NCBI GenBank assembly: GCA_903865435.1
Contig: CAIPJS010000077.1
Location: 20,526-84,525 of the forward strand
Length of the DNA: 64,000 bases
Direction: 5' to 3'
Source: an uncultured Bacteroidota bacterium
Lineage (GTDB): Bacteria > Bacteroidota > Bacteroidia > Chitinophagales > Chitinophagaceae
The position numbers were made by a program, and so were the translations under genes. Under the pieces are notes generated by a model. That model did not search any database. It was not told the origin of the DNA and saw only the letters and a list, made by a program, of their open reading frames with translations. Shown piece after piece: positions 27,761 to 48,635 of the stretch (position 1 is the first letter of the stretch; each line of letters opens with the position of its first letter).

Positions 27761-28969
27761 TTATAATTGTTGAGTCAATGCCAATACACTCATCGTTCCC
27801 ATCATTACTACGACCATCCAGCCCATGGCCTCAATCCAAATAGGATATTTGTATTGTTTTAAGATGGGTAATTTTCTGCCAGCAATGAGCATAATAGAAA
27901 GTGCAAAAGGTAAAATAAATCCATTCACGAGTCCTGCCATCAACAACAATTCTTTAGGCTTGCCTAAGAAAATAAAAATACTTGTAGAAATTACAATAAA
28001 AGCAGTAATGCATTTACGTTCGTTTTGTAAAATTTTAATTTTTAAATTTTTAATAAAACTATAAGAAGTATAAGAAGAGCCAATTACCGAAGAAATGGCT
28101 GCACTCCAAAGTACAATACCAAAAATAAATAAGCCCCATCTTCCACCCGCCGATTCAAATACAGTGGCGGCTGGATTGTTCTTATCTAAATGAATGCCTT
28201 GGCTTACCACACCTACTGCTGCAAGAAATAAAATAAAACGCATTAAAGAGGAAATTAAAATGCCTGTGGTAGCACTTTTAGTGACAAACTTGATGTGTTC
28301 AGTTCCTGAAATACCCGCATCTATTAATCGGTGTGCGCCCGAAAAAGTAATGTAACCACCCACTGTTCCGCCTACAATGGTTACAATGGCCAGTAAAGAA
28401 ATTTTTTCTGGAATAAAAGTATGATGTACTGCTTCTAAAATAGGAGGGTGTGCTGCGTATACAATGAGTAAGGTCAATCCTATTTTTAAAATGCCTAAAA
28501 TTTTAGTGAGTTGATCTAAGACTTTTCCAATTTCATCTACCCAAAAAATAACAATGGCCACGATGCCACTTAGCATGGCCCCTTTGGCAAAGGAAATACC
28601 TGTTAAAATATTTAATGCCAATCCGCAGCCTGCAATATTGCCAATATTAAAAGCGAAGCCACCTAGTACTACTAATAAAGAAAGTAAATGACCTAAACCA
28701 GGAAACAATTCATTGGCAATTTCTTGCGCGCGCATTCCACTTAAAGTAATGGCACGCCAAATATTTATCTGTGCGCCAAAATCTAAAATGATAGAAAGTA
28801 AAATTACAAAACCAAAACTGGTAATGAGTTGTTCGGTATAAAATGATGTTTGTGTCAAAAATCCAGGACCGATGGATGAATTGGCCATTAAAAATGCAGC
28901 GCCTAAACTTAGGCCAGTCATGGATTTTAAAGGGCTGCTAGTTTTAGACATATTTAATTGGGATGGCAT
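27761..28969 (-). CDS. NRAMP-family divalent metal cation transporter-like
   Basis: Multi-TM; SIGPGFLTQTSFYT; synteny with pxpA. Confidence 0.75.
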   Translation of the reverse strand: MPSQLNMSKTSSPLKSMTGLSLGAAFLMANSSIGPGFLTQTSFYTEQLITSFGFVILLSIILDFGAQINIWRAITLSGMRAQEIANELFPGLGHLLSLLVVLGGFAFNIGNIAGCGLALNILTGISFAKGAMLSGIVAIVIFWVDEIGKVLDQLTKILGILKIGLTLLIVYAAHPPILEAVHHTFIPEKISLLAIVTIVGGTVGGYITFSGAHRLIDAGISGTEHIKFVTKSATTGILISSLMRFILFLAAVGVVSQGIHLDKNNPAATVFESAGGRWGLFIFGIVLWSAAISSVIGSSYTSYSFIKNLKIKILQNERKCITAFIVISTSIFIFLGKPKELLLMAGLVNGFILPFALSIMLIAGRKLPILKQYKYPIWIEAMGWMVVVMMGTMSVLALTQQL

Positions 28970-29726
28970 TATTTTTTAAACTTTCATGCAAAGCACTTAC
29001 AATTTCAAATGCATGAGGCCCATCTCCATGCACACAAACAGTATTGGCTTCAATATCAATAGGCGTGCCATGCGCCGTAGCTACTTTTTTATCAAAAATA
29101 ATTGTAAGCACTTGCGAGCAAGCTTCTTGGGCATCATCAATCATAGCGTGATCTAGGTATCTTGGTGTTAAAGAACCATCTTGTTGATAGGTTCTATCCG
29201 CAAAAACTTCATTCGCAAAAGGTTGTCCCAATATTTTTGCTTGGGTAATGGTATGACTTCCACTTAATCCATAAATAATTAAATCTGGATCTATGGCTTG
29301 AATGGTTTGAATAAAAATTTTGCTAAGTGCTGCATCTTTCGCACAATCGTTGTACAAAGCGCCATGCAATTTAACATGATGTAAACTGACACCTAAGGGT
29401 AAGGCAATTCTTTCAAACACATACATTTGCTCTGCTATGAGTTCGGCCATCTCCAACAATGAAACCATCTGTGAAACTCTTCCAAAATTGATTTTATCAT
29501 CATAACCAGGATGCGCGCCTATCGCCACATTGTTTTTCAATGCAAGCTCAATTGTTTTTTTGATAGAATCGGTATTGCCTGCATGGTAACCACATGAAAT
29601 ATTCGCACTACTAATCAAAGGCATTATTTCGGCTTCATTACCCATGCCTTCGCCCATATCACAATTCAGGTCAATGGATAAACCCTTTTTGAATTTGTTG
29701 GTATAGTTGATGTGCGGTGTTGACAT
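28944..29726 (-). CDS. pxpA: 5-oxoprolinase subunit PxpA (LamB/YcsF family)
   Basis: SIDLNCDMGEGMGNEAEIMPLISSANISCGYHAG; VCVHGDGPHA. Confidence 0.94.
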   Translation of the reverse strand: MSTPHINYTNKFKKGLSIDLNCDMGEGMGNEAEIMPLISSANISCGYHAGNTDSIKKTIELALKNNVAIGAHPGYDDKINFGRVSQMVSLLEMAELIAEQMYVFERIALPLGVSLHHVKLHGALYNDCAKDAALSKIFIQTIQAIDPDLIIYGLSGSHTITQAKILGQPFANEVFADRTYQQDGSLTPRYLDHAMIDDAQEACSQVLTIIFDKKVATAHGTPIDIEANTVCVHGDGPHAFEIVSALHESLKNNAIPIKYV

Positions 29727-30579
29727 TGGTTAAACTAAAATGAAAGGCTGTATCATTTTTTAATTGAGCAAATCTTGGTAAATCTACCAAAATAATTTGA
29801 CCCAAATTCGCATAACCGCCAATGGTTTGGTGATCGGCCATCAATACCGTCACAGAACCATTGGGTAAAAGTTGCAAGGTACCTCTGGTTACCCCAGCAG
29901 ATAAATATTGATTGGGCCTGTTTAAATCTAACAATGGTCCTTTTAATAAATAACCCATTCTATTGCTTTGCAAAGTGGATTGAAAAGGTTTTGATAATAA
30001 TTGATTCAAAGCTGCATCAGTTAAATGCTCCCAAGCTGGACCAGGTAGTATTCTAATAGATGATTGATTGTGAATCAATTGTGCCCATTCTTGTGAGCGG
30101 GCAAGGATGGCTGCTTTGGCTGGCCCTTGCTCATTTGTAATTGGTTTGAAAGGGTAGATAGCTCCTTTTTGTAAGCGCCCATCCAAATGGCTATAGCTAT
30201 CTAGCCAAGCTTCCTTTTCTAAATGGCCTTCAATAGCCAAATAAGCCACTTTGCCAGTTAATGGTTTTACAAATGTAAGCACATCATTTGGGTGCACTTG
30301 AATGGGCTCATTCAATGTAATGACCGCTTTGTTAATTGTTGGAACAAAATTTGCACCAGTGATACAAATTTTATAAGCCGCATTAAATAAAAAACTGCTT
30401 GCAGGAAAATGCAACTCAAAAACAGGTTGATCTAATTTATTATTTAAAATATAATTACTTAATTGTGCAGAAAAAAAATCTAATGCGCCATGGGGTTGTA
30501 TGCCAAGATGCTGAAACCCATACCTGCCTTTGTCTTGAAGTGAGTCTGCAATTCCTGCTTTTATAATTTCAATGGACAT
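29671..30579 (-). CDS. pxpC: 5-oxoprolinase subunit PxpC (biotin-dependent carboxyltransferase family)
   Basis: GIADSLQDKGRYGFQHLGIQPHGALD; RILPGPAWE; SNRMGYLLKG. Confidence 0.93.
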   Translation of the reverse strand: MSIEIIKAGIADSLQDKGRYGFQHLGIQPHGALDFFSAQLSNYILNNKLDQPVFELHFPASSFLFNAAYKICITGANFVPTINKAVITLNEPIQVHPNDVLTFVKPLTGKVAYLAIEGHLEKEAWLDSYSHLDGRLQKGAIYPFKPITNEQGPAKAAILARSQEWAQLIHNQSSIRILPGPAWEHLTDAALNQLLSKPFQSTLQSNRMGYLLKGPLLDLNRPNQYLSAGVTRGTLQLLPNGSVTVLMADHQTIGGYANLGQIILVDLPRFAQLKNDTAFHFSLTNVNTAHQLYQQIQKGFIH

Positions 30580-30989: not shown

Positions 30990-33900
30990 ATGCAAAAATT
31001 CCTACGTTTAATTACGGTTCCTTTGTTACTATGGGGTCTTGTTGCGACTGCGCAAACAAGAACTATAAAAGGACAAGTAGTTTCAGCTACAGACGGTAAA
31101 GCCGTTGCTGGTGCTACAATTTCAGTTAATGGACAAAAAGTCGCTGCAATCGCAAGCGAAGATGGTTCATTCGCTGTAACGGTTTCTGGCAATGTTACTT
31201 TATCAGTAAAATCCGTTGGATTTTCTAATAAAACTGTAGCAGTTGCAGGAAGTCAAAATACTATCAAGATTACTCTTAACGAGGAATCATCTCAATTAAA
31301 TGAGATCGTTGTAACTGGTTATACCGCTCAAAAGAGAAAAGAAATTACTGGTGCGGTATCAGTTGTAAACGTAAAAGACATGAAATCAGTTCCTTCAGGT
31401 ACTGCAGAGCAAATGTTACAAGGCCAGGCTTCTGGTGTAACAATCATTGGTTCTGGTAGCCCAGGAGAAAACAGTAACGTGTTTGTACGTGGTATTACTT
31501 CATTTGGTAACTCAACTCCACTTATTATCGTTGACGGAGTTCAATCAGCTCCTGGTGATATGACGATGTTGCATGACTTAAATGCAAACGACATTGAATC
31601 AGTTCAAGTATTGAAAGATGGTCAAGCTGCGATATACGGTGCTCGTGGATCTGCTGGTGTTATCATTGTTACAACTAAGAAAGGAAGAGGCAAACCAACT
31701 ATCACTTATGATGGTTATACTGGTATGCAAGTTCCAAAATCTGGTAACGTATGGAACAAATTAGATCCTCAAGGTATGGCTGATTTATATTTCTTAGCTG
31801 CAAAGAACTCAGGTCAAGTAGATGCTAACGGTAACGTTGTATCTGGACAATATGGTACAGGTAAAACTCCAGTTTTGCCAGACTTTATTAAGGCTGGTTC
31901 TAAATCTGGTGTTTCTGCTTCAGATCCTGCAACTAACTTAGCTCTTTATAATAATAGCTATTCTAAAGGCAATATCTACTTAATCGTTCCAGCTAATAAG
32001 CAAGGTACTGATTGGTGGGGTGAGTTGTTCAAAACAGCTCCAATGTCTAGCCATAGCGTAACTGCTACAGGTGGTACAGACAAATCAACTTACTTATTCT
32101 CATTAAACTATTTCGATCAACAAGGTACTTTGTTGAATACTTATTTAAAGCGTTACTCTGCAAGGGTGAACACTACTTGGAATCCAAAAAGCAATATTCG
32201 TATTGGTGAAAACTTAGCTGTTTTCTACAAAGACAACCCAAAAATTGGTAACAACCAAGAAGGTAATGCGGTAAACCTTACTGCATGGGAGCAACCAATC
32301 ATCCCTAAATTAGATGCAGGTGGTGGATATGGTGGTACAGCTGGTTCTGAGTTAGGAAACTCTTCTAACCCTTATGCGAACCAAATGCGTGCTAAAGACA
32401 ATAAAAACAACGACTGGCAAATTCAAGGTAATGTGTTTGCTGAAGTTGATTTGGCTAAGCACTTAACTGCTAAAACAGTATTTGGTGGTAACTTAGATAA
32501 CTATTATGGTTTCTATCATAACTACCGTACTTATGAGAATGCTGAAAATGGAGCATCTAATGGATATGGTGAGTACAGTGGTTTCAACAACAACTGGAAC
32601 TTCACAAATACATTAAGTTATTCTAACATCTTCAAGCAAGACCATAGTGTTAAGTTAATGGCTGGTTATGAGTCATTAAAAGTATCTGGTCGTCAAGTGG
32701 GTGGTTCTAGAGTGAACTACTATTCTGATAACGTAGATTACTTAAGTTTAAATACAGGTTCTCCAATTGGACAAAACAACTATAGTAACTATTACAATAC
32801 TACTGGTACATCAATCTTAGCTAAAGTAGATTATGCTTACAAAGACAAATACTTAGTTGGTTTGAATGGTCGTCGTGATGGTAGTTCAGTTTTTGGACCA
32901 AATACACGTTATGGTAATTTCTGGTCAGCTTCTGCTGGTTGGATGGTATCTAACGAAGATTTCTTTAAAAATGTAAAATTTGTCAATTCACTTAAAGTAC
33001 GTGGTAGCTATGGTATCTTAGGATCTATCTCTAACGTAGGTGCATTGAACCAATATACTACTTATGGTGGTAGTGGTGGATCTTCTTATTATGACTTAAA
33101 CGGTACTTCTAATTCAACTGTTTTAGGATTCTATGCAACTAACTTGGGTAACTTAAGTACAGGTTGGGAGCAAGATAAAATCTTAGATTTCGGTGTGGAT
33201 GCGACTGTTTTAAACAATAAATTAGATATCACTTTTGATTGGTACAAAAAAACAATCAATGGTTTGTTATTCCAAGACCAAGCTCCTGCTGTAATTGGAG
33301 TAGGTTCTAATTTACCTCAGGTGAATATTGGTGATATGCAAAACACTGGTATTGATTTAGGTTTAACTTACCGCGGAAAAATTAACAATGATGTAAGCTA
33401 TACTGTAGGTGCTAATTTAGGTGCGTACAAAAGTACCATCTTAAATATCCCAGGTTCTGCTGGTTTCTTTGAAGCTGCAGGAACACACAATACAGGTAAT
33501 CAAGTAAGAGATCAAATTGGACATCCAGTAGGTTCTTTCTTTGGTTATAAAATTGCTGGAATTTATCAATCAGCTGCTGATGTAGCTGCTTCACCTACAG
33601 AAACAGATGCTGCTCCAGGTCGTTTCAAATATGTGGATGTGAACCATGATGGTAAAATCGATGACAACGATAGAACTTTCTTTGGTAATCCAAACCCAGC
33701 GTTCACTTTAGGTTTAAATTTAGGACTTACTTACAAGCGCTTTGATTTCTCTACTGTGCTTTATGGATCTTTCGGAAACGATATCATGAACTACACTCGT
33801 TACTTCCAAGATTTCTATCCTCAGTTCCAGAACTCAAAAAGTATTCCTTTGTTAACTCAATCTTGGTTGCCTACCAGAACTAATACTAAGTATCCAATTG

Positions 33901-34196
33901 TTGAAAACGGATCTTACTTTAGTACCAATGGTGTAATTAACAACTTCTATGTTGAAGATGGCTCTTTTGTAAGAGTTAAACAATTAAGTGTTGGTTATAC
34001 AATTGATCCAGTAGCTTTAAAAAGATATGGTATCGAAAAAGCGCGTATTTATTTACAAGGTGCTAACTTATTCACCTTTACTAAATACTCAGGTTTAGAT
34101 CCAGAAATTAGTGGTAGCTCAGTTTCTTTTGGAGTTGACTACGGTAACTATCCTCCTTCTAAGACTTTTAACATTGGAGTAAGCCTTACTTTTTAA
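30990..34196 (+). CDS. SusC/RagA family TonB-linked outer membrane protein
   Basis: Signal peptide, carboxypeptidase-D regulatory-like domain, IVVTGYTAQKRKEITGAVSVV, long barrel ending LTF. ATG at 30990 preferred. Confidence 0.96.
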   Translation: MQKFLRLITVPLLLWGLVATAQTRTIKGQVVSATDGKAVAGATISVNGQKVAAIASEDGSFAVTVSGNVTLSVKSVGFSNKTVAVAGSQNTIKITLNEESSQLNEIVVTGYTAQKRKEITGAVSVVNVKDMKSVPSGTAEQMLQGQASGVTIIGSGSPGENSNVFVRGITSFGNSTPLIIVDGVQSAPGDMTMLHDLNANDIESVQVLKDGQAAIYGARGSAGVIIVTTKKGRGKPTITYDGYTGMQVPKSGNVWNKLDPQGMADLYFLAAKNSGQVDANGNVVSGQYGTGKTPVLPDFIKAGSKSGVSASDPATNLALYNNSYSKGNIYLIVPANKQGTDWWGELFKTAPMSSHSVTATGGTDKSTYLFSLNYFDQQGTLLNTYLKRYSARVNTTWNPKSNIRIGENLAVFYKDNPKIGNNQEGNAVNLTAWEQPIIPKLDAGGGYGGTAGSELGNSSNPYANQMRAKDNKNNDWQIQGNVFAEVDLAKHLTAKTVFGGNLDNYYGFYHNYRTYENAENGASNGYGEYSGFNNNWNFTNTLSYSNIFKQDHSVKLMAGYESLKVSGRQVGGSRVNYYSDNVDYLSLNTGSPIGQNNYSNYYNTTGTSILAKVDYAYKDKYLVGLNGRRDGSSVFGPNTRYGNFWSASAGWMVSNEDFFKNVKFVNSLKVRGSYGILGSISNVGALNQYTTYGGSGGSSYYDLNGTSNSTVLGFYATNLGNLSTGWEQDKILDFGVDATVLNNKLDITFDWYKKTINGLLFQDQAPAVIGVGSNLPQVNIGDMQNTGIDLGLTYRGKINNDVSYTVGANLGAYKSTILNIPGSAGFFEAAGTHNTGNQVRDQIGHPVGSFFGYKIAGIYQSAADVAASPTETDAAPGRFKYVDVNHDGKIDDNDRTFFGNPNPAFTLGLNLGLTYKRFDFSTVLYGSFGNDIMNYTRYFQDFYPQFQNSKSIPLLTQSWLPTRTNTKYPIVENGSYFSTNGVINNFYVEDGSFVRVKQLSVGYTIDPVALKRYGIEKARIYLQGANLFTFTKYSGLDPEISGSSVSFGVDYGNYPPSKTFNIGVSLTF

Positions 34197-34215
34197 ATTT
34201 TAAATTAATTATAAA

Positions 34216-35961
34216 ATGAAAAAATACAATTTTAAACATATAATGCCATTGGTGCTTTCTTTCGTGGTTATTTTATATGCTTGTAATAAAAACTACCTAG
34301 ATGTTCCAGCCGCTGGTGCGTTAAGCCAGGATGTGTTGGCGAACAAAGTAGGTGTTGAAGCCCTTTTAGTAGGTGCTTATTCTTTATTGGATGGAGAAGG
34401 TAGTAATGCCGGTACAGGAAATGGTCCTTGGGCAACTTCTTCAAGTAACTGGGTATATGGTTCAATTCCAGGAGGGGACGCTCATAAAGGTTCTGATCCA
34501 GGTGACCAAAACTTAATTACTCCAATCGAACAATGGAATGCTACAGCTGCTAACGGATATCTTGATCAATTGTGGCAACAACGTTATGATGGTGTTGCTC
34601 GTTCAAATGAGACTTTAAGAATTCTTAAATTAGCTAAAGACGTAACTGCTGCTGACGTATCTCGTATTACTGCAGAAGCAAGATTTTTACGTGGACATTA
34701 CCATTTCGAATTGGCTAAGAACTTCAACAATATTCCTTACATAGATGAGTCTATCACTTATGTTGCTGGAAACTATTTAGTTGCAAACGGACCAGCTTTG
34801 GCTAAAATTGAAGCTGATTTCGCTTATGCTTATGCAAACTTGCCTGAGACTATGTCTTCAGTAGGTCGTGCTAACAAATGGGCTGCTGCAGCTTACTTAG
34901 CTAAAGTGTATATGTACGAGAAAAAATTCTCTGATGCTAAAGCTTTGTTTACTACAATCATCGCCAATGGTAAAACATCATTAGGCGTTAAATATGCGTT
35001 GATGGACAAATTTGCTGATGTATTTAATCCAGCAAAAAAGAATGGTGCTGAAGACGTATTTACAGTTCAAATGACTGCGAATGATGGTACTGGTGCTGCA
35101 AATGCAAACGCTGGTGACGCCTTAAACTTCCCTTATGGTGGAGAAACAGGATGTTGCGGATTTTTCCAACCTTCATTTGGTTTAGCGAATTCTTTCAAAG
35201 TTGATGCGAATGGCCTTCCTTTATTAGACGGATCATATTACAGCAATCCATTGAAAACAGATATGGGTGTATCTGCTGATAAAGCTTACAGTCCAGATGC
35301 AACAACTCCATTAGATCCTCGTATCGACTGGACAGTGGGTCGTCGTGGTATTCCTTTCTTAGATTGGGGTTTAATGCCAGGTTCTACTTGGGTTCGTAAT
35401 CAAGCTGCTGCTGGTCCTTATGAACCAATTAAGCACTTGTTCTACAAGTCTCAAGAAGGTGTATTTACTGATGGATCTTCATGGACTAATGGATTTACTG
35501 CAAACAACTACCATATTATTCGTTTTGCTGATGTGCTTTTAATGGCTGCTGAAGCAGAAGTATTAGGTGGTGGTTCTCTAACTCAAGCTTTAACTTATGT
35601 TAACTTAGTTCGTGCTCGTGCAGCTAACAAAGCTGGTTATGTTCAAGGATCTGTTGCCAATTATCAAATTGGTTTGTATAAATCTTTCCCAGATGCTACT
35701 TATGCGACTAACGCTATTCGTTTTGAGCGTAAAATTGAATTAGCAATGGAAGGACATCGTTTCTACGATTTAACTCGTTGGGGCGGTGCAAAAGCAGAGT
35801 TAGATGCTTATGCTAAATTTGAAGCTTCTCAAGGTTATTTATCAATGACTGGTGTTACTTATACTACCGGAAAATCTGAATACTTGCCTTTACCACAAGC
35901 TCAAATTGACAAAACTCAAAAAGACGGCAAATCTCTTTTAACTCAAAATCCGGGTTACTAA
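34216..35961 (+). CDS. RagB/SusD family nutrient uptake lipoprotein
   Basis: Lipobox ILYACNKNYLD; SusD TPR region ARFLRGHYHFELAKNF; C-terminal RFYDLTRWG, YLPLPQAQID. Confidence 0.96.
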   Translation: MKKYNFKHIMPLVLSFVVILYACNKNYLDVPAAGALSQDVLANKVGVEALLVGAYSLLDGEGSNAGTGNGPWATSSSNWVYGSIPGGDAHKGSDPGDQNLITPIEQWNATAANGYLDQLWQQRYDGVARSNETLRILKLAKDVTAADVSRITAEARFLRGHYHFELAKNFNNIPYIDESITYVAGNYLVANGPALAKIEADFAYAYANLPETMSSVGRANKWAAAAYLAKVYMYEKKFSDAKALFTTIIANGKTSLGVKYALMDKFADVFNPAKKNGAEDVFTVQMTANDGTGAANANAGDALNFPYGGETGCCGFFQPSFGLANSFKVDANGLPLLDGSYYSNPLKTDMGVSADKAYSPDATTPLDPRIDWTVGRRGIPFLDWGLMPGSTWVRNQAAAGPYEPIKHLFYKSQEGVFTDGSSWTNGFTANNYHIIRFADVLLMAAEAEVLGGGSLTQALTYVNLVRARAANKAGYVQGSVANYQIGLYKSFPDATYATNAIRFERKIELAMEGHRFYDLTRWGGAKAELDAYAKFEASQGYLSMTGVTYTTGKSEYLPLPQAQIDKTQKDGKSLLTQNPGY

Positions 35962-35988
35962 TTGATTTAGTTTAGTTGAATTTTATAC

Positions 35989-36024
35989 AAAGACCCTTGT
36001 TCCTTATGGAGCAAGGGTCTTTTT
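35989..36024 (+). terminator. Intrinsic terminator after susC-susD pair
   Basis: AAAGACCCTTGTTCC..GGAGCAAGGGTCTTTTTTT hairpin with T-tract. Confidence 0.85.
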
Positions 36025-36102
36025 TTATGTGGTTAATAGTAAAACAATTTCTGTTGTATCTTTATATACTCATTAAAACTCCTATAATTCTAAACTTTTT
36101 TT

Positions 36103-39100
36103 ATGTTAAGACAATTCTTTTATTTTGCTTTTATTGGTTTAACAATTAGTTCCTGTAATCTCAAAAAGCCCTTATTTGAGTTGGTAAAATCCAGCCATTC
36201 TGGGATTGATTTTAATAACCAAGTTATAGAAACGGACTCCTTAAATGTTTTAGACGTTTCAAATATTTACAATGGAGGCGGAGTGGGCATTGGCGATTTT
36301 AATAAAGATGGCTTACCCGATATCTATTTTACAGGCAATAGAGTGTCTAACAAATTATACTTAAACAAAGGCGATTTTAAATTCAATGACATCACTAAAG
36401 AGGCGGGTGTAACAGGGGAAGGCAAGTGGAGCAGGGGGGTGTCGGTGATTGATATCAACAACGATGGTTGGCCTGATATTTATGTAAGTGTTACTTTAGA
36501 AAAAGATAGTAACAGAAGAAAAAATATTCTTTACATCAATCAAGGATTGGATAAGAAAGGAGTGCCTCATTTTAAAGATATGGCAGCAGAATATGGACTA
36601 GCAGATACTTCATTTTCTACCATGGCTACTTTTTTTGATTACGACAACGATGGTGATTTAGATATGTTTTTAGTAGTCAATGAAATTAAAGATCCAAGAA
36701 CTCCCAATATCTATCATCCGCGCAATCAAGATCCTTCAACTTTTAGTTCTTGTAAATTGTTTCAAAACAATTGGGACCCCATTTTAAAACATCCTGTATT
36801 TAAAGATGTTTCTGCAAAAGCCGGTATTGTAAGAGAAGGCTATGGACACAATGCAGTCATTACGGATATCAATAAAGATGGCTGGCCTGATATCTATGTG
36901 ACCAACGATTATTTACCCAATGATTATTTATGGATCAACAACCATGATGGCACATTTACCGATCAATTAAGCGTTTATTTTAAACATAGTTCTGTCAATG
37001 CGATGGGCATTGATGTGGCAGACATTAACAATGACGGTTTAATGGATTTTTGTACCCTAGACATGAATCCGCGCGATAACTACCGAAAAAAAATGATGAT
37101 GAATGCCAATAGTTATCAAACATTTCAAAACAATGATTTGTATGGCTATAGTTATCAATACGTGCGCAATACACTTCAAATTAATCAAGGTCCTAGGGTC
37201 AATCAAAACGATTCTATTGGGGCGCCTATCTTTAGTGAAATTGGATTTTTATCGGGCATTGCAGAAACCGATTGGAGTTGGACCCCTCTGTTGGCCGATT
37301 TTGACAATGATGGCCATAGAGATCTGATTGTGACCAACGGTTTCCCCAAAGATGTTACTGATCATGATTTTATTACCTATCGAAATAAGGCCTTTAGTGT
37401 CGCTACAAAATCACAATTATTAATGGCTATCCCCGAAGTTAAAATTCATAATTATGCATTTAAAAATAATGCCAATTTAACTTTTACAGATGTGTCAAGC
37501 AGCTGGGGTTTGAATACGCCTAGTTTTTCAAACGGTGCTGTATATGTAGATTTAAACAATGATGGGGCATTGGATTTAGTTGTAAACAATATCAATGATG
37601 TGGCTTCAATTTATAAAAACACTCAAGCCCAACAAAATAAAACACCGCAACATTATTTAGAAGTCAAATTAATAGGGGATACGTTAAATATAAATGGACT
37701 TGGAGCATCAGTAACCATTTTTTATGATCACAATAAAAAACAAATTTGGGAAAATTCACCTTATAGGGGTTATTTATCTACAGTGCAGGATAGGGCACAT
37801 TTTGGGCTAGGTGCAATCAATAACATTGATTCTTTATTGGTTCAATGGCAAGGCGGAAAAATTGAGGTACAAAAAAACATTGCGGCGAATCAATTGCTTT
37901 TTATCAAGAAATCAAATGCGAAAGACGCTACGCCAACAGCTGCGCCTGTATTTGCTGAAAAATCTTTATTTAAAGAAGTAACTCGTTCTTTGGGTGTGCA
38001 ATACATGCATCAACAAAATGATTTTGTCGATTTTAACATTCAAAAATTATTACCACATAAATTTTCTGAATACGGTCCGGCCATTGCCGTGGGAGATATT
38101 GATGGCAATGGATTGGATGATATGATATTAGGTGGAGCAAGCAATTATAGTCCGCAAATATTTTTACAACAAGCCAATGGCAAGTTTATACAATCTGCTT
38201 TATTACCCAAAGTAAACTACAATAAACCCAATAGTGATTTAGGCTTATTGTTATTAGATGTGGACGGAGACGGTGATTTAGACTTGTATATTAGTAGTGG
38301 AGGTTTTGAGCATACTTCGGGCGATGTTTCTTATCAAGATCAGTTGTACATCAATGATGGTAAAGCTAAATTTACACTAAGTGCTGATGCCATACCAACC
38401 AATCATACAAGCAAATTATGTGTTCGTGCCATAGATTATGATAAGGATGGAGATTTGGATTTATTTGTATCTGGAAGGGTAGATCCTTGGAATTATCCAA
38501 AAGCCGTATCTAGTTATATTTATAGAAATGACAGTAAAGATGGTGTAGTAAAATACACAGATGTAACCAAGTTTGTAGCAAAAGATTTAGTAAATATTGG
38601 TTTGGTTTGCGATGCCTTATTTACCGATTTTGACAATGATGGTTGGCCCGATTTAATTTTAACGGGTGAATGGATGCCTATTACTTTTTTGAAAAATGAG
38701 CATGGTATTTTCAAAAATGTATCTGCTACTTCTGGAATCAACAATCAAGTAGGCTGGTGGAATTCTATTACGGCTGGAGATTTTGACAATGATGGCAAAA
38801 TGGATTACATCATAGGCAATATGGGATTGAATTCTTTTTACAGAGCAAGTGAACCATATCCTGTTTCTATTTATGCCAAGGATTTTGACAACAATGGAAG
38901 TTATGACGCATTCCCAACTTTATATTTACCCAGTAGCGATATAGATACTGTCAAAAAAGAATATCCTGCACAAGTAAGAGAGGATATTGTGAAGCAAATG
39001 ATTGGCATGCGTTCTATTTTCCAAAACTATAAAACCTTTGCAAAGGCAGACATCAATCAGGTGTTGACCAAGGAGCAATTAAAAGGCGCGCAAATTTTAA

Positions 39101-39687
39101 AAGCGAATAATTTTAATTCGGTTTACCTTAAAAATAAAGGAGACGGAAAGTTTGAACTGATGCCACTTCCTATACAAGCTCAATTTTCAACTTTAAATGG
39201 GATGGTAGTGGATGATTTTGATGGAGATGGCAATTTGGATGTACTCATCAATGGGAACGACTTTGGTACTGAGGTTTCCGTAGGTAGGTATGATGCCTTA
39301 AATGGGCTATTGTTAAAAGGAAATGGCCAAGGTGGGGCTAATGGGTTTACGCCCTTATCCATCTTAGAAAGTGGCATTTTTATCCCAGGAAATGGAAAGG
39401 CATTGGTAAAATTAAGAGGGGCCAATGGGAAGTATTTATTGGCAGCATCTCAAAACAAGGGGGCTTTAAAGATATTTGAATTAAAAAATAAGGGTACTAT
39501 TTTACCTGTTGGCCCGAATGATGCTTCGGCCACCATCGAATATAAAAATGGGAAAAAAAGAAAACAAGAATTCTATTATGGGAATTCGTTTTTGTCACAA
39601 TCAGCCAGATTCATCAATAGCAATGAGGCTATTAAAATGATTACAATCATAAACCAAAAAGGGGCAAGTAGAACAATTAATTATTAA
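36103..39687 (+). CDS. VCBS/FG-GAP repeat lipoprotein with internal ASPIC/UnbV domain
   Basis: Lipobox LTISSCN; about 14 DxDxDG-type loops (DFNKDGLPD, DINNDGWPD, DYDNDGDLD, DFDGDGNLD etc.); UnbV-like GLGASVTIFYD...GYLSTVQDRAHFGLG. Confidence 0.93.
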   Translation: MLRQFFYFAFIGLTISSCNLKKPLFELVKSSHSGIDFNNQVIETDSLNVLDVSNIYNGGGVGIGDFNKDGLPDIYFTGNRVSNKLYLNKGDFKFNDITKEAGVTGEGKWSRGVSVIDINNDGWPDIYVSVTLEKDSNRRKNILYINQGLDKKGVPHFKDMAAEYGLADTSFSTMATFFDYDNDGDLDMFLVVNEIKDPRTPNIYHPRNQDPSTFSSCKLFQNNWDPILKHPVFKDVSAKAGIVREGYGHNAVITDINKDGWPDIYVTNDYLPNDYLWINNHDGTFTDQLSVYFKHSSVNAMGIDVADINNDGLMDFCTLDMNPRDNYRKKMMMNANSYQTFQNNDLYGYSYQYVRNTLQINQGPRVNQNDSIGAPIFSEIGFLSGIAETDWSWTPLLADFDNDGHRDLIVTNGFPKDVTDHDFITYRNKAFSVATKSQLLMAIPEVKIHNYAFKNNANLTFTDVSSSWGLNTPSFSNGAVYVDLNNDGALDLVVNNINDVASIYKNTQAQQNKTPQHYLEVKLIGDTLNINGLGASVTIFYDHNKKQIWENSPYRGYLSTVQDRAHFGLGAINNIDSLLVQWQGGKIEVQKNIAANQLLFIKKSNAKDATPTAAPVFAEKSLFKEVTRSLGVQYMHQQNDFVDFNIQKLLPHKFSEYGPAIAVGDIDGNGLDDMILGGASNYSPQIFLQQANGKFIQSALLPKVNYNKPNSDLGLLLLDVDGDGDLDLYISSGGFEHTSGDVSYQDQLYINDGKAKFTLSADAIPTNHTSKLCVRAIDYDKDGDLDLFVSGRVDPWNYPKAVSSYIYRNDSKDGVVKYTDVTKFVAKDLVNIGLVCDALFTDFDNDGWPDLILTGEWMPITFLKNEHGIFKNVSATSGINNQVGWWNSITAGDFDNDGKMDYIIGNMGLNSFYRASEPYPVSIYAKDFDNNGSYDAFPTLYLPSSDIDTVKKEYPAQVREDIVKQMIGMRSIFQNYKTFAKADINQVLTKEQLKGAQILKANNFNSVYLKNKGDGKFELMPLPIQAQFSTLNGMVVDDFDGDGNLDVLINGNDFGTEVSVGRYDALNGLLLKGNGQGGANGFTPLSILESGIFIPGNGKALVKLRGANGKYLLAASQNKGALKIFELKNKGTILPVGPNDASATIEYKNGKKRKQEFYYGNSFLSQSARFINSNEAIKMITIINQKGASRTINY

Positions 39688-39719
39688 ATTGTGACTACAT
39701 CAAAAGCAAATAAAGTAAA

Positions 39720-41042
39720 ATGAAACATTATTTAAAATCATACGCACAACTTGCATTCCTACTTCTTTTATTCGCTTCCTGTTCACATATGAAACCTGCT
39801 AAATTGGTGGATGTTGATGTGTTAAGAAACAACGAAGATCAATTGACGCAAGTTATTATTTACGATGTTTTCACGCCCCCCGTGGCAAGCAGAATTTATG
39901 TGTATTCTTCGATTGCTTCTTATGAAGCCATTCGATTTAGCAAAGAAGGGTCTGTTTCAATAGCCGAAAAATTATATGGATTTGGTACCATGCCCACACC
40001 GGAGAAAGGTAAAAATTACAATTTCACATTAGCCGCTACCAAAGCATTTTTTAAAGTGGCAAGAAATGTAAAGGTGTTTTCGGTAGATTCTTTAACCAAG
40101 TATGAAGCATCTGTTTATTCTAATTATAAAGAAAACTTGGACGAAACAACTTATGCCAATTCAGTTGCCTTTGGTGATTCAGTGGCATCGGTAGTTTTGG
40201 CAAGAGCAAAAACGGATGGCTATGCAAAATCTAGAGGAAAACAAAAATATTTGGGTAGCAACGAGCCTGGGAAATGGCGTCCTACCCCTCCCGATTATAT
40301 GGATGGTGTTGAATGGTGTTGGAATACCATGAAGCCATTGGTATTGGATTCGGCATCACAGTTCATTCCCAATCGCCCACCAGTGTATGATACCAAACCA
40401 GGTTCAGTGTATTATAATATGATGAAAGAAGTGTACATCATTAATAAAAATTTAACTGATGAGCAAAAGCTGATTGCAAAATATTGGGATGACAATCCAT
40501 TTGTATTAGAACATAGCGGACATATGATGTTTGGCAATAAAAAAATCACTCCAGGTGGACATTGGATGGGTATAGCCGCACAAATTATAGATCAAAAAAA
40601 AGCAGATCCAGTAAAAGCAGCCCAAACCTTTGCATTAACCTCTATTGCTTTGTTTGATGGATTTATTTCTTGTTGGGATGAGAAATACAGAAGTAGTTAT
40701 GTACGTCCAGGTACTGCCATCAATGAATTGGTTGATAAAAATTGGGCAACTTTATTACAAACGCCCCCTTTTCCAGAATATCCAAGCGGACATAGTACGA
40801 TTACTGCTTCAGCAGCCACAGTATTGACCAAATTGTATGGAGACAACATCGCATTTGAAGACTCTAGCGATTTCCAATATATAGGTTTGAAAAGAAAATT
40901 TAATTCATTCCATCAAGCAGCTGCAGAATGCTCGATGAGTAGGGTATATGGTGGCATTCACTATGTATTGAGTGTGAATACAGGTGCTGATATGGGAAAA
41001 CAAGTGGGAAATTTGGTTGTGAGTAAATTACTAAAGGAATAA
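39720..41042 (+). CDS. Vanadium-dependent haloperoxidase / PAP2-superfamily lipoprotein
   Basis: Lipobox LLFASCS; KYRSSYVRP (KX6RP), EYPSGHST, SRVYGGIHY (SRX5H) active-site signature. Confidence 0.9.
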   Translation: MKHYLKSYAQLAFLLLLFASCSHMKPAKLVDVDVLRNNEDQLTQVIIYDVFTPPVASRIYVYSSIASYEAIRFSKEGSVSIAEKLYGFGTMPTPEKGKNYNFTLAATKAFFKVARNVKVFSVDSLTKYEASVYSNYKENLDETTYANSVAFGDSVASVVLARAKTDGYAKSRGKQKYLGSNEPGKWRPTPPDYMDGVEWCWNTMKPLVLDSASQFIPNRPPVYDTKPGSVYYNMMKEVYIINKNLTDEQKLIAKYWDDNPFVLEHSGHMMFGNKKITPGGHWMGIAAQIIDQKKADPVKAAQTFALTSIALFDGFISCWDEKYRSSYVRPGTAINELVDKNWATLLQTPPFPEYPSGHSTITASAATVLTKLYGDNIAFEDSSDFQYIGLKRKFNSFHQAAAECSMSRVYGGIHYVLSVNTGADMGKQVGNLVVSKLLKE

Positions 41043-41089: not shown

Positions 41090-41842
41090 TTATTTTTTAA
41101 ATAGCATCAACAAGGAACCTAAAAGAGTTAATACAATAATTAGTTTTCGGAAATGGGCTTCTTTTACTTTGTTAACTATTTTCAATCCCAAGAAAAATCC
41201 TATTATCAGGGTAGGCAATAAGAAGGCATCAATCTTTATACTTTCTAGGGTAATGTTTTTCCAAAAAAATATTTGGAAAGGCAGCTTGAATAAGTTCATG
41301 AATAAAAATATCCATGCGGCTGTTCCAATAAAGTCATTTTTTTCTAATCGCATAGCCAAAAAATATAAATTTGAAAACGCTCCCGCTAAATTGCCTAGCA
41401 TGGTGGTAATGCCCGAAGCAAGGCCCGTGCTGGCTACAAAGAAAGGGTGGGTAGGTACTTTTTTGGATTTTCGCAATTCCATAAAAATAATAATGACGAT
41501 TGTCATCAATATAATCACAGCCATTATTTTTCTAAAAACTATTTCATTCAGGTCTTTCCCAACATACATGCCAATTAAAATACCTGCCATCATCCAAGGA
41601 ACAATTTTCCAAAAATGGATCCATTGTGCATGTCGATGGTAATAGATTACTGCAGCAATATCAGCTATACACAATAGGGGCAGGATAATACCCGTAGAGG
41701 CTTTGCTACCAAATGCAAAAGCCATGATTGTTACACTAAGCATATCAATTCCCTTAAGTCCTGCTTTTCCAAGTCCTGTAAAAAAGGAAGCCAATAAAAT
41801 AAAGCCCCAGGTAGATAAAGAATAGAGTGCGATGGTGTTCAT
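41090..41842 (-). CDS. TSUP (TauE/SafE) family membrane transporter
   Basis: Two-fold TM repeat architecture with FTGLGKAGLKG and TTMLGNLAGAFSNLYFL motifs. Confidence 0.82.
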   Translation of the reverse strand: MNTIALYSLSTWGFILLASFFTGLGKAGLKGIDMLSVTIMAFAFGSKASTGIILPLLCIADIAAVIYYHRHAQWIHFWKIVPWMMAGILIGMYVGKDLNEIVFRKIMAVIILMTIVIIIFMELRKSKKVPTHPFFVASTGLASGITTMLGNLAGAFSNLYFLAMRLEKNDFIGTAAWIFLFMNLFKLPFQIFFWKNITLESIKIDAFLLPTLIIGFFLGLKIVNKVKEAHFRKLIIVLTLLGSLLMLFKK

Positions 41843-42612
41843 TTTATTTTTATAAATATTGAGTAGTCGTAAATATTTTTGCTTTCCATTTTTTCAAATA
41901 AAGCTTTATCAATCGAATAAAATTGTACTTGATCACCCACTTTAAACAAAGCTAATTTTGAAGGATTGTGATCAAAGATTTGAAGCGGGGTTCGGCCAAT
42001 AATTTGCCATCCACCAGGAGAATTTTTTGGATAAATTCCTGTCTGTGACCCAGCAATACCAACGCTTCCTGCCATTACATTTTGTCGAGGGGTAGCTTGT
42101 CTAGGCACTTGTATTTGATCATTTACATTGCCCATATAAGCAAAGCCTGGCATAAATCCCAAACAAAAAACATTGTATACTTCTTGGGTATGTATTTCAA
42201 CAATACTTTCAATAGATAGGTTTTTTAATTGTGCAATGGCTTCTAGATCTATTCCATATTCCAATTCGTAACAAACAGGCACTTTGATAATTTTATTTAC
42301 TGCAACATCTAGTTTTAAGTTTGTTGCTGCTATAATGGGGGGTAATTTATTTTGTACAAAACTTAAAGGGTCGATTTTTTCTGATCTATAAAATATTTCT
42401 ATATCATAAACAAGGGTTATGGTCTGATAAGCCGGTATAATATCTTTAATCCAACTATGAACGCTTTTTAATTCATGGCAGGCAGCAGTAATTTTCTTAA
42501 TATAAAGAATTGATTCTTTGGAAGGAGGCTCCAATATAGACAGCAAAATGGCATGGTCACCCAGATAATTCATTTGAAGTACTGTGCCTTTAAAAGCTGA
42601 TTCAGATTGCAT
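41839..42612 (-). CDS. pxpB: 5-oxoprolinase subunit PxpB (allophanate hydrolase subunit 1 family)
   Basis: VCYELEYGIDLEAIA, CLGFMPGFAYMG, SPGGWQIIGRTPLQIFD. Confidence 0.93.
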   Translation of the reverse strand: MQSESAFKGTVLQMNYLGDHAILLSILEPPSKESILYIKKITAACHELKSVHSWIKDIIPAYQTITLVYDIEIFYRSEKIDPLSFVQNKLPPIIAATNLKLDVAVNKIIKVPVCYELEYGIDLEAIAQLKNLSIESIVEIHTQEVYNVFCLGFMPGFAYMGNVNDQIQVPRQATPRQNVMAGSVGIAGSQTGIYPKNSPGGWQIIGRTPLQIFDHNPSKLALFKVGDQVQFYSIDKALFEKMESKNIYDYSIFIKIK

Positions 42613-42788: not shown

Positions 42789-44177
42789 ATGAAAAACACA
42801 ATCAAGCGCCTACTGCTATTCCTTTCTTTTTTCATTTCAATTCAATTGCAATCGCAAGTTTTTACTACAAGCGCTAATGGCATTTTAAAATTTGAACAAA
42901 GTTCTTTTTCTAAAAGTCCCATTGCAACTTCTGAAAAAAATAACATTGCAACCATTACAGTAAAAGCGAATACTCAATTTCAGACCATCGAAGGATTTGG
43001 CTATGCTTTAACAGGTGGTGCTGCTCAATTAATAGATCAGTTGCCTGTTATCAAAAAAAATGCATTATTAAAAGAAATTTTTGGTAAAGGTCCAAAGGAT
43101 ATGGGCATAAGCTATATTAGAGTGAGCATGGGGGCCTCCGATTTAGATGCACATGTATTTAGTTATTGTGATTTGCTACAAGGAGCTACCGATAGTGCTT
43201 TATCGCATTTTTCATTGTCAGAAGATACTTTACATTTAATCCCTATTTTAAAAAGGGTATTGGCCATTCAACCTAATTTAAAAATAATGGCATCTCCATG
43301 GAGTCCTCCAATTTGGATGAAATCTAATTTAAATTCAATGGGCGGGTCTTTGCAAAAAAAATACTATGCTACTTATGCTAATTATTTTGTCAAGTATATT
43401 AGAACAATGCAGGAGCAGGGCATACCCATTTGTTCTATTACCATGCAAAATGAGCCAGAACATGGAGGCAACAATCCTAGCCTATTGATGAATGCACAGG
43501 AGCAAAAAGAATTTTTAAGAGATTTTCTAGGCCCTCTTTTCCAAAAAGAAAATATAAAAACTGAAATTGTTTTGTTTGATCACAATGCCGATCATCCCAA
43601 TTATCCCATTTCTATCTTAGATGATGCAAAAGCAAAATCTTATGCAGCAGCCACTGCTTTTCATTTGTATTTAGGCACAGAGGCGGCTCTCTCAGAAGTG
43701 CATGCAAAACATCCCGATAAAAAAATATATTTTACAGAACAATGGACAGGAGCCAAAAGTGATTTTGATGGTGATTTTATGTGGCATTTAGAACATATTG
43801 TTTTAGGTACCATTCAAAACTGGAGCAGCGTTGTTTTAGAATGGAATTTAGCCAATGATGCTAAGTATGCACCCCATACACCCGGTGGTTGTACCGAATG
43901 TAAAGGTGCTTTCACGATACAAGATGCATCAATTAACAGGAATGTGAGTTATTATATTATTGCACAAATTTCAAAATACATTGAACCTGGTGCAGTGAGA
44001 ACCGAAAGCATATCTGATGATGCGGCAATTAAAACAGTAAGCTTTAATTTAAAGAATGGCAAGAAAGCTTTGTTGGTATTAAATAAATCGGCGGCGAAGA
44101 AGATAGTGGTGCAAGAGGGGTCTATTCATTTAAACTTTACAATGCCTGAAAAGTCGGCTGCTACAATAATTTGGTAA
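42789..44177 (+). CDS. Glycoside hydrolase family 30 protein
   Basis: FQTIEGFGYALTGGAA; acid/base ITMQNEPEHGG; nucleophile region IYFTEQWTG; signal peptide. Confidence 0.92.
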   Translation: MKNTIKRLLLFLSFFISIQLQSQVFTTSANGILKFEQSSFSKSPIATSEKNNIATITVKANTQFQTIEGFGYALTGGAAQLIDQLPVIKKNALLKEIFGKGPKDMGISYIRVSMGASDLDAHVFSYCDLLQGATDSALSHFSLSEDTLHLIPILKRVLAIQPNLKIMASPWSPPIWMKSNLNSMGGSLQKKYYATYANYFVKYIRTMQEQGIPICSITMQNEPEHGGNNPSLLMNAQEQKEFLRDFLGPLFQKENIKTEIVLFDHNADHPNYPISILDDAKAKSYAAATAFHLYLGTEAALSEVHAKHPDKKIYFTEQWTGAKSDFDGDFMWHLEHIVLGTIQNWSSVVLEWNLANDAKYAPHTPGGCTECKGAFTIQDASINRNVSYYIIAQISKYIEPGAVRTESISDDAAIKTVSFNLKNGKKALLVLNKSAAKKIVVQEGSIHLNFTMPEKSAATIIW

Positions 44178-44208
44178 AATATTTGTGAACTATATAAAAA
44201 TTGATGGT

Positions 44209-46485
44209 ATGAAAAATAAAATGTTGATGGTGTTTACTTTATTGATGGTTAATTATTCATTTGCACAAATCAGTAAACAAGCAACCATGCATGCATTTGT
44301 AAACCAATTGCTTGCTAAAATGACTTTGGAAGAAAAATTAGGACAATTAAACCTACCTGCATCAAGTGATTTTGTAACGGGTGCGGTGAGTAGTTCTGAT
44401 ATTGCACAAAAAGTGAAAGATGGTAAAGTGGGTGGCGTTTTTAATATCAGATCTGTGACTAAAATTAAAGAGTTACAAGAGTATGCTGTTAAAAATACAA
44501 GACTGCACATCCCATTGTTATTTGGCATGGATGTGATTCATGGTTACAAAACAATTTTTCCTATTCCTTTAGGGATGTCAGCAACCTGGGACATGTCATT
44601 GATTGAGCGCTCGGCTCGAATTGCGGCAAGCGAAGCCAGCGCTGATGGTATTATGTGGACTTTTTCACCCATGGTTGATTTAACTCGAGATCCACGTTGG
44701 GGTAGAACTTCAGAGGGGAATGGTGAAGATGCTTTTTTAAGTTCTGCTATTGCTAAAGCTATGGTGCATGGGTATCAGGGTGATGATTTGTCTTTGAAAA
44801 ATACCATCATGTCCTGCGTGAAACATTATGCATTGTATGGTGCAGCCGAAGGTGGCCGTGATTACAATACTACGGATATGAGTCGCATCAGAATGTACAA
44901 TGAATATTTTCCTCCTTATAAAGCAGCAGTGGATGCAGGCGTGAAATCTGTTATGGTTTCATTTAATGAAATTGATGGCGTACCCGCATCTGGTAACAAA
45001 TGGTTGGTAGATGATGTGCTGCGTAAGCAATGGAAATTCAATGGATTTGTGGTTTCAGATTATACGGGCATTCCCGAAATGGTGAACCATGGTATAGGTG
45101 ATTTTAAAACAGTAAATGAAAAAGCATTATTGGCAGGTGTGGATATGGACATGGTAGGTGAAGGCTTTTTAAATATGTTTAAAAAATCTTTAAAAGAAGG
45201 AAAAATTACACAAGCGCAGATTGATAAAGCTTGCGAGCGCATTTTAATTTCTAAATATGAATTGGGGTTGTTTGATGATCCCTATAGATACTGTGATGAA
45301 AAAAGGTCTGCAACAGAAGTATTTACTCCCAAAAACAGAATGGATGCTAGAGAGATTGCAGCGCAAAGTTTTGTATTGCTAAAGAACAATAATAATTTAT
45401 TGCCACTTGCCAAAGGTAAAAAAATTGCTTTGGTGGGGCCGTTAGCCAATGCTAAAGAAAACATGACAGGTACTTGGAGTGTGGGTGCCGACAATTCAAA
45501 GTCTATTTCTTTATTACAAGGTTTGACTGAAGTTGTAGGTAGTTATGGCAAAGTTTCTTATGCTGCAGGATCCAACTTGGAAGATGATGCTGAATTACAA
45601 AAGCGTGAAACCATGTTTGGAAAAGAAATGGCAAGAGACAATAGAACTGCCGAACAATTACTTCAAGAAGCAGTAACAGTAAGTGCAGATGCAGATGTGA
45701 TTGTTGCTGCTTTAGGAGAAGGTGCAGAGAGTAGTGGAGAGAGCGCTTCTCGTTCTAATTTAGATTTGCCAGCAGTGCAACAAAAATTATTAAAAGCTTT
45801 ATTGGCAACAGGTAAGCCAGTAGTATTGGTTTTATTCAATGGCCGTCCACTTACTTTAACTTGGGAAGATGCCAATGTTCCAGCAATTTTAGATGTATGG
45901 TTTGGTGGTTCTGAAGCAGGCTATGCCATTGCAGATGTATTAATGGGTAAAGTAAATCCTTCAGGTAAATTAAGTATGAGCTTCCCACAAAATGTAGGTC
46001 AAATACCATTGTATTACAACCATAAAAATACAGGCCGTCCTTTAGGCAAATGGTTTTCTAAGTTTCAATCTAATTATTTAGATGTAAGCAATGAACCCTT
46101 GTATTCTTTTGGATATGGTTTAAGCTATTCAAAATTCGAATACAGTCATTTTGCAGTATCTGATACGCTATTAAAAGGCAATAAGAAATTAACAGCTACA
46201 GTGGAAGTGAAAAACACAAGTAACACAGCAGGTAAGGAAGTGGTGCAAATGTATATAAGAGATGTAGTAGGATCGGTGACTAGACCTGTTGAAGAATTAA
46301 AGGGTTTTCAAAAAATAGACCTGGCTTCAGGGGAAACAAAAAAAGTGATTTTTGAAATTACGCCTGAGTTATTGAAATTTTATAACACGGATTTAAAATA
46401 TGATTGGGAGTCGGGAGATTTTCAAATCATGGTAGGCCCTAATTCAAGAGAAGTACAAAAGCTTAAAATAAATTGGACGAAATAG
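44209..46485 (+). CDS. Glycoside hydrolase family 3 (BglX-like beta-glucosidase)
   Basis: Signal peptide; KHYALYGAAEGGRDYN; nucleophile GFVVSDYTG; C-terminal FnIII-like domain. Confidence 0.94.
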   Translation: MKNKMLMVFTLLMVNYSFAQISKQATMHAFVNQLLAKMTLEEKLGQLNLPASSDFVTGAVSSSDIAQKVKDGKVGGVFNIRSVTKIKELQEYAVKNTRLHIPLLFGMDVIHGYKTIFPIPLGMSATWDMSLIERSARIAASEASADGIMWTFSPMVDLTRDPRWGRTSEGNGEDAFLSSAIAKAMVHGYQGDDLSLKNTIMSCVKHYALYGAAEGGRDYNTTDMSRIRMYNEYFPPYKAAVDAGVKSVMVSFNEIDGVPASGNKWLVDDVLRKQWKFNGFVVSDYTGIPEMVNHGIGDFKTVNEKALLAGVDMDMVGEGFLNMFKKSLKEGKITQAQIDKACERILISKYELGLFDDPYRYCDEKRSATEVFTPKNRMDAREIAAQSFVLLKNNNNLLPLAKGKKIALVGPLANAKENMTGTWSVGADNSKSISLLQGLTEVVGSYGKVSYAAGSNLEDDAELQKRETMFGKEMARDNRTAEQLLQEAVTVSADADVIVAALGEGAESSGESASRSNLDLPAVQQKLLKALLATGKPVVLVLFNGRPLTLTWEDANVPAILDVWFGGSEAGYAIADVLMGKVNPSGKLSMSFPQNVGQIPLYYNHKNTGRPLGKWFSKFQSNYLDVSNEPLYSFGYGLSYSKFEYSHFAVSDTLLKGNKKLTATVEVKNTSNTAGKEVVQMYIRDVVGSVTRPVEELKGFQKIDLASGETKKVIFEITPELLKFYNTDLKYDWESGDFQIMVGPNSREVQKLKINWTK

Positions 46486-46615
46486 GTAAATTATATTAGA
46501 AATTAATTTACCAGGAACCATACAAATAAATATCTATGATATTTATTTGATAAATATTTAGAGGTATGGTTCTGGGTAAATTATATTAGAAATTAATTTA
46601 CCAGGAACCATACAA
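46485..46615. repeat. 41-bp perfect direct repeat plus an inverted degenerate copy between bglX and Nudix gene
   Basis: 46485-46525 = 46575-46615; an inverted ~20-bp copy (GTATGGTTCTGGGTAAATTA) overlaps the left side of copy 2. Confidence 0.9.
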
Positions 46616-47389
46616 GCCCTCTTTTAATGCCTTTTGATATTTCTTATCATTGAAAGTGTATAAAAAGGGGGATTTGTGTGCACCGCCTTTTCTAGCTTCA
46701 TTTAATTTATTTAAAATTCCAAAGCCCAACATTTTTCTTTGAAAATTGCGGCGGTCTAGGGGTTTGTTTAAAATGGTCTCGTATAATTTCTGCAATTCCG
46801 GCATGGTAAATTTCTTAGGCAGTAAGTTTTTACCAATAGGTAGATAAGCTAATTGTGTTCTAAGGCTTTCCAATGCTTTTTGAATAATTGCACCATGATC
46901 ATGTTCAATGGGAAGATGCTTGACCTGCTCAATACCTTTCCAATCATACACAGAATTAATAGGATCATTTTGAATAGAGAAGTTGGTATAATCAATTAAG
47001 GCAAAATAACCTACGGAAACGAATCTTTGTATCATACAATGGTCCTTGGGTATTTTAGATCCATACTGCTCAAAAGTGGTCTTATGTACTGAGGCATCGG
47101 TTCTATTAGGTTGACCAAAAACATCAAATTGTTTAAGGTATATATCATTCAATCCTGTTCTTTCAAGTAAGACGCGATAAGCTGCATCATTTATATCTTC
47201 AGATTTAAGCACAAAGCCCCCAGGGAGGGTCCATTTGTTGCTTTTGGCACTATCTAATAAAAGTAGCTTCAGTGTATTTTCATGGAATCCAAAAATGACG
47301 CAATCGATGGAAATGCCTGGCAAGAAGAGTTCATTCCCTTTGACAAGGAATTGCTTAAGGCTGGCTGGAAGGGCAGGGGTTTTGGACAT
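46598..47389 (-). CDS. Nudix-domain protein with C-terminal winged-helix-like region (predicted transcriptional regulator)
   Basis: WTLPGGFVLKSEDINDAAYRVLLERTGL (Nudix box degraded) and C-terminal FTMPELQKLYETILNKPLDRRNFQRKML. Confidence 0.85.
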   Translation of the reverse strand: MSKTPALPASLKQFLVKGNELFLPGISIDCVIFGFHENTLKLLLLDSAKSNKWTLPGGFVLKSEDINDAAYRVLLERTGLNDIYLKQFDVFGQPNRTDASVHKTTFEQYGSKIPKDHCMIQRFVSVGYFALIDYTNFSIQNDPINSVYDWKGIEQVKHLPIEHDHGAIIQKALESLRTQLAYLPIGKNLLPKKFTMPELQKLYETILNKPLDRRNFQRKMLGFGILNKLNEARKGGAHKSPFLYTFNDKKYQKALKEGLYGSW

Positions 47390-47507
47390 GGTTTAAAGAT
47401 AGAAAAATTAGGCAATTTGAACCAATTTATTTAGATTGTGTCTGTGTAACGCAATGATGAACTGAATCATCAGCTATCATTATCAATTTTATCTTTAATT
47501 ATATACT

Positions 47508-48437: not shown

Positions 48438-48514
48438 GAATTAGAATAAGTAAAATGATAAAAATACAATAGATAGTACAATTGTCCCCCAAAGCATACT
48501 TCTGTGGGTATTAA

Positions 48515-48543: not shown

Positions 48544-48573
48544 ATTGTATAAGTATTTTTGAATTCAGTTAGA

Positions 48574-48608: not shown

Positions 48609-48635
48609 TCAATAATTCCTTCAATAACATAATCA

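Follow-up and report, generated by a model that had tools for sequence, protein, structure and literature searches.

Conserved pairing of a VCBS/ASPIC lipoprotein with a vanadium-haloperoxidase-family lipoprotein, often beside SusC and SusD, in Bacteroidota

Introduction

Work on vanadium haloperoxidases (VHPOs) has centred on halogenation in the sea and in algae, while the bacterial enzymes have been studied mostly within natural-product pathways. Here we analyse a block of four consecutive genes on the plus strand (30990–41042) of a 64,000-nt stretch of DNA (the window, contig CAIPJS010000077.1) from a Sediminibacterium-like genome of 2.33 Mb, in the order SusC, SusD, VCBS (an FG-GAP/ASPIC lipoprotein) and a VHPO-family lipoprotein. 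The closest described enzyme is ZgVIPO1 of Zobellia galactanivorans (PDB 4cit, 4usz), which oxidises iodide according to PDB titles and what other papers say of it. The window VHPO shares its fold and vanadate site at about 40–42% identity over the full length, although the residue ahead of SGH is Thr in ZgVIPO1 and Pro in the window protein. The ZgVIPO1 gene also lies directly behind VCBS/ASPIC genes (locus L164), but this locus belongs to a marine flavobacterium and has three tandem VCBS genes and no SusC/SusD pair (SusCD) in the 20 kb examined.

The other genes of the block can likewise be set beside described systems. CRTAC1/ASPIC-UnbV proteins have FG-GAP repeats and an ASPIC domain as the window VCBS protein does, but the latter is a bacterial lipoprotein and, at 1194 aa, roughly twice as long as CRTAC1 with its 551 resolved residues. 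The β-1,6-glucan polysaccharide utilisation locus (PUL) with the BT3312 glycoside hydrolase (GH) of family GH30 and a GH3 resembles the window in having a SusC/SusD pair, a BT3312-type GH30 and a GH3. Unlike that PUL, the window has two non-CAZyme lipoproteins (VCBS and VHPO) inside, its GHs lie beyond antisense pxpB/TauE genes, and no SusR/HTCS/ECF regulator was recognised among the annotated neighbours of the block, the nearest regulator being NrtR/AraR-like (46598–47389).

Results

The VCBS and VHPO genes form a conserved pair. Neighbourhoods were assessed in an operon-aware manner, and homologues at least 52% identical to the window VHPO were counted as close. A VCBS gene was found upstream of VHPO in the same operon in 43 of the 46 close homologues, and SusC, SusD and VCBS were all present there in 31. 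Among the more distant homologues VCBS was upstream in 30 of 63. In the 20 flavobacterial VHPO loci sampled, VCBS preceded VHPO within one gene run in 17 and lay nearby in another two. These three sets of counts are slightly conservative because open reading frame (ORF) calling missed a VHPO lying beneath a longer antisense ORF. Across the phylum, 40 VHPO loci from an even draw of genomes gave VCBS upstream in 30 and SusC–SusD–VCBS in 15; the SusC–SusD–VCBS–VHPO order was found again in several families, and the VCBS–VHPO gaps were short across loci. One locus reads VCBS-VCBS-VCBS-VHPO with a 7-nt gap; its enzyme is 99% identical to the crystallised protein, and hence its genome is that of Z. 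galactanivorans or a close relative. The neighbourhood is therefore conserved beyond this strain, and the proximity of VCBS and VHPO genes in other Bacteroidota, which the first-pass annotation had mentioned, is borne out even at the locus of the characterised iodoperoxidase. VHPO genes themselves occurred in 127 of 249 sampled genomes of the window's family, 151 of 351 of the flavobacterial family and 71 of 393 in the even phylum draw.

The genome of the window has a single VHPO and a single VCBS homologue, which are adjacent to each other, and 12 other genomes checked had 3–11 VCBS genes each. Since VCBS genes are few per genome, chance adjacency of the two would be rare. The distance matrices of VHPO and VCBS were correlated (rho 0.54, 0 of 500 permutations); the correlation was weak for VHPO with SusC (0.28) and strong for SusC with SusD (0.86). 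VCBS and VHPO are thus the tight core and SusCD is the looser part: in Chitinophaga (loci L090, L091 and L093) SusCD is divergent from VCBS–VHPO, and many distant loci have no SusCD. Other arrangements were also seen. At L073, four minus-strand genes, one of them TonB-receptor-like, are inserted at 2522–9731 and part VCBS and a cytochrome–FG-GAP gene from VHPO. In Aquirufa and relatives (L110, L111, L115, L121 and L128) VHPO occurs without VCBS, beside a globin-like protein and a flavin amine-oxidase-like protein that is a possible source of H2O2, both identified by Pfam on L110 only.

The VHPO gene (39720–41042, plus strand) encodes a Zobellia-iodoperoxidase-type lipoprotein with the lipobox LFAS-C21, the Cys being nearly invariant among relatives. 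It matched 4cit over the full length (phmmer E 5e-111; profile E 1.5e-185). As for structure, its AlphaFold2 (AF2) model (pLDDT 88), compared using Foldseek, bears out the assignment, superposing on 4usz/4cit at 2.3 Å with a template-modelling (TM) score of 0.92 when normalised by target and 0.87 by query. The vanadate signature comprises K322-X6-R329-P330, P355-S-G-H358 and S407-R408-X5-H414. In an alignment of 119 non-redundant sequences that included the window protein and 4cit, K322, R329-P330, H358 and the second-sphere W319 were invariant, as were R408 and H414 bar one undetermined residue. The Asp of the phosphatase HxxxD pattern, four residues past the catalytic His, was missing in 116 of the 119; its position is S418 in the window protein and Ala, Ser or Gly in most of the others. 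Since the fold matches over the full length, the vanadate site is essentially invariant and this Asp is missing, the predicted enzyme type, a VHPO like the Zobellia iodoperoxidase, is well supported and highly probable. We infer that the window enzyme loads vanadate and oxidises halides.

The VCBS gene (36103–39687, plus strand) encodes a lipoprotein with lipobox TISS-C18, the Cys of which is invariant among relatives, and matched FG-GAP_3 (E 3.7e-76, 7 repeats) and UnbV_ASPIC (E 9e-20). Its AF2 model (pLDDT 89.5, pTM 0.89) is mostly β-strand in propeller-type repeats, and the top PDB match was murine CRTAC1 (9etn) by both profile (E 7.8e-27) and fold (E 2e-26), consistent with a CRTAC1-like multi-propeller. 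Far lower among the fold matches (rank 43) is the VCBS-type lectin PVL, and therefore glycan- or matrix-binding by the modelled protein is plausible. A comparison of residues +2 to +7 of SusD, VCBS, VHPO, the CxxCH/FG-GAP lipoprotein and DUF1573 revealed no acidic export signal common to them and nothing decisive; VCBS and VHPO may be located at the surface and be physical partners.

Upstream, SusC (30990–34196, plus strand) is a SusC/RagA-type TonB-dependent outer-membrane transporter (TIGR04056, E 2.4e-230, 1–981 of 981; Plug and CarbopepD_reg_2), its ORF opening at 30933 and the ATG at 30990 being taken as the start codon. The SusD/RagB lipoprotein (34216–35961, plus strand; lipobox ILYA-C23) matched SusD_RagB (E 6.5e-40) and SusD-like_3 (E 1.7e-19). 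The gaps within the block are 19 nt (SusC–SusD), 141 nt (SusD–VCBS) and 32 nt (VCBS–VHPO). The four same-strand genes, their domains, the three lipoboxes and the vanadate signature described by the first-pass annotation were all confirmed by ORFs and profile matches.

The gap between susD and vcbs contains a terminator-like hairpin (35989–36022, plus strand) with a 15-bp stem, a 4-nt loop and a U run (folding z = -4.86). A terminator-like hairpin was found at this position in 30 of 37 loci, the window included, with 0.00 expected from mononucleotide shuffling, and across Chitinophagaceae its place is kept and its sequence diverged. Because of this conserved hairpin, SusCD and VCBS–VHPO would be expressed at different levels or transcribed separately. 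The Bacteroidota promoter TTTG-N18-22-TAnnTTTG had no site ahead of SusC and no excess within the window, and a sigma-70-type promoter scan did no better than shuffles. The proposal that the four genes make up one surface module is therefore not supported in the sense of four equal partners: VCBS and VHPO are the tight pair, whereas SusCD can be exchanged, is divergent at some loci and missing from others, and is set apart by the hairpin.

Glycan-related genes lie close by. A GH30 endo-β-1,6-glucanase-like gene of BT3312 type (42789–44177; NF053856, E 2.9e-115, under the equivalog cut-off) and a GH3 β-glucosidase-like gene (44185–46485) begin 1.7 kb downstream of the block on the same strand, past two antisense genes, a TauE/SafE permease and the 5-oxoprolinase subunit gene pxpB (41090–42612, minus strand). 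The nearest VHPO relatives (75–83% identity) are mostly from Sediminibacterium and freshwater Bacteroidetes metagenome-assembled genomes. In the nearest relatives, L072–L079 and L097, the order is SusC–SusD–VCBS–VHPO–GMC oxidoreductase(s)–GH30–GH3 as far as the contig reaches, except in L073, which is rearranged and has TauE–pxpB between VHPO and GH30 as in the window, where these genes, which are not part of the module, take the place of the GMC oxidoreductase. In L075, L076, L077 and L079, pxpC and pxpB are adjacent and upstream of SusC. Since the relatives are contiguous through GMC–GH30–GH3 and the window is split by TauE–pxpB, the window holds, in rearranged form, a glycan locus with a BT3312-like GH30. 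The suggestion of a possibly non-glycan substrate, made alongside the remark that no GH or polysaccharide lyase gene lies inside the block, is not upheld by this context or by that of other clades, where the VHPO neighbours include GH65, GH13, GH97, a GlcNAc-2-epimerase family (AGE) protein, an FGGY kinase and an SSS symporter and, as read from the sequence, GH20 and GH92.

In Chitinophagaceae a DUF1573 lipoprotein and an FG-GAP lipoprotein with a CxxCH haem motif often join the module, the latter in 15 of the 46 close loci. The two often lie between VCBS and VHPO (as at 7884–9961 of L085 and 10649–12845 of L045), and the CxxCH protein is a possible cytochrome c partner. One VHPO clade (L061, L062, L065, L066, L071, L143 and L151) has the gene beside VCBS and a GH65-like or similar-sized protein (675–705 aa), GH65 being Pfam-confirmed only for L061 and L143. 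The window's minus-strand 5-oxoprolinase set is interrupted by the 10-kb block, with pxpB and TauE on one side and pxpC, pxpA and NRAMP (27761–30579), also outside the module, on the other. After GH3, the run at 46598–52856 (a NUDIX/NrtR-AraR-like regulator, a sugar isomerase-like protein, Gfo/Idh/MocA, a nucleoside–H+ symporter, a Cys/Met PLP enzyme and OsmC) is largely syntenic in relatives. Contig C37 of genome G000 (locus L190) carries a GMC oxidoreductase, a Tat-signal small subunit, sugar isomerase-like and Gfo/Idh-like proteins and one resembling a 3-keto-disaccharide hydrolase; as read from the sequence, this cluster resembles a putative 3-keto-glycoside pathway.

Discussion

We propose that the four genes form the core of a PUL-like glycan-uptake locus that carries an accessory oxidation module of two lipoproteins, a reading to which we give an even chance; that the module is linked to glycans at all is rather probable. 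SusC and SusD would bind and import oligosaccharides, most likely β-1,6-glucan fragments freed by the neighbouring GH30 and GH3, while VCBS, as a rigid CRTAC1-like multi-propeller at the envelope, would keep a ligand, matrix glycan or partner close to the cell. With H2O2, the envelope-tethered VHPO would oxidise an anion such as iodide or bromide. Production of the hypohalous oxidant would remove peroxide arising from nearby sugar-oxidising enzymes or from algae or plants, and the oxidant could alter substituents of the glycan matrix ahead of import. A benefit of the module to glycan use is presumed, and whether it lies in peroxide removal, matrix modification or both is a guess.

Several points weigh against this proposal. 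Sediminibacterium is a freshwater group, and iodide and bromide are scarce in fresh water. The GMC gene, the candidate H2O2 source, is on another contig here (93% identical to that of a relative), and an enzyme of GMC type may be a dehydrogenase and not an oxidase that makes H2O2. About a third of the close homologues have no SusCD in the same-strand run, and co-expression of SusCD with VCBS–VHPO may be doubted given the hairpin. Finally, apo-haloperoxidases may show a side phosphatase activity, going by the title of PDB entry 3bb0.

That activity bears on the idea that the VHPO is truly a PAP2-type phosphatase which dephosphorylates phosphorylated glycans or organophosphates prior to uptake. 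PAP2 was indeed the best Pfam match (E 1.1e-9, with VCPO_2nd at E 4.6e-8), and the core motif KX6RP–PSGH–SRX5H is common to both enzyme types, being found in PAP2 acid phosphatases of the PhoN/PhoC class as well as in the window protein. However, only this core can be aligned with those enzymes (TM ≤ 0.33, query-normalised, vs 0.92 to 4usz), the HxxxD Asp is missing from the window protein and nearly all its homologues, Thr rather than Pro usually precedes SGH across the VHPO family, and no phosphate-starvation genes are nearby. A phosphatase is therefore unlikely, and the choice that the first-pass annotation had left even leans clearly towards a VHPO. Another reading is that VCBS–VHPO serves envelope stress or defence in general, by removing peroxide or by making hypohalite against competitors, and only hitch-hikes next to glycan loci since SusCD–VCBS units are common. 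The occurrence of the pair without SusCD, a VHPO–SusC correlation below both VHPO–VCBS and SusC–SusD, and glycan partners that vary by clade (β-glucan, α-glucan, chito-type, xylose-type) would fit such a role, but some sugar genes recur alongside in many clades and the four-gene order is found in several families, and we regard this explanation as possible though doubtful.

It is considerably less probable that the module serves not glycans but substrates that are halogenated or aromatic (scavenging of iodine or organohalides, dehalogenation, halogenation). Although the characterised relative oxidises iodide and published work connects Zobellia VHPOs with iodine accumulation and with halogenated compounds of algae (PMC9296495, PMC8490876), glycan genes and no dehalogenase or aromatic-catabolism gene were found near the block, and the host is a freshwater bacterium. 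There is hardly any chance that the four genes are functionally unconnected and adjacent by accident or local rearrangement: rearrangement is plain to see at the window locus, where the 5-oxoprolinase set is split and the GMC gene displaced, but order and strand are conserved across families and VCBS genes are few per genome. For VCBS and VHPO in particular, chance adjacency is refuted by the conserved linkage together with the low VCBS copy number.

All parts of the module are from known families. In the limited open-access literature searched, no paper was found that joins a haloperoxidase with SusD or FG-GAP, the sole one with both haloperoxidase and VCBS being an unrelated Rhizobium genome paper, and no description was found of the VCBS–VHPO pairing, its embedding in glycan loci or the SusD–VCBS hairpin. 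We conclude that the block is an undescribed yet conserved accessory module of glycan-uptake loci. As a tentative extension, which we hold to be a good deal less likely than its opposite, Bacteroidota glycan loci of freshwater, soil and marine habitats may widely carry a dedicated extracellular halide-oxidation arm, a lipid-anchored, propeller-scaffolded vanadium peroxidase sometimes joined by a cytochrome c–propeller lipoprotein, for H2O2-driven glycan conditioning or peroxide detoxification while glycans are being attacked. That a VIPO-type enzyme is genetically linked to VCBS/ASPIC lipoproteins, and often to glycan uptake by SusCD as well, gives a concrete physiological context both to the haloperoxidase and to the VCBS/ASPIC proteins, whose function is obscure. 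Should the enzyme oxidise halides, one could then test whether the turnover of glycans is tied to halogen chemistry in non-marine habitats.

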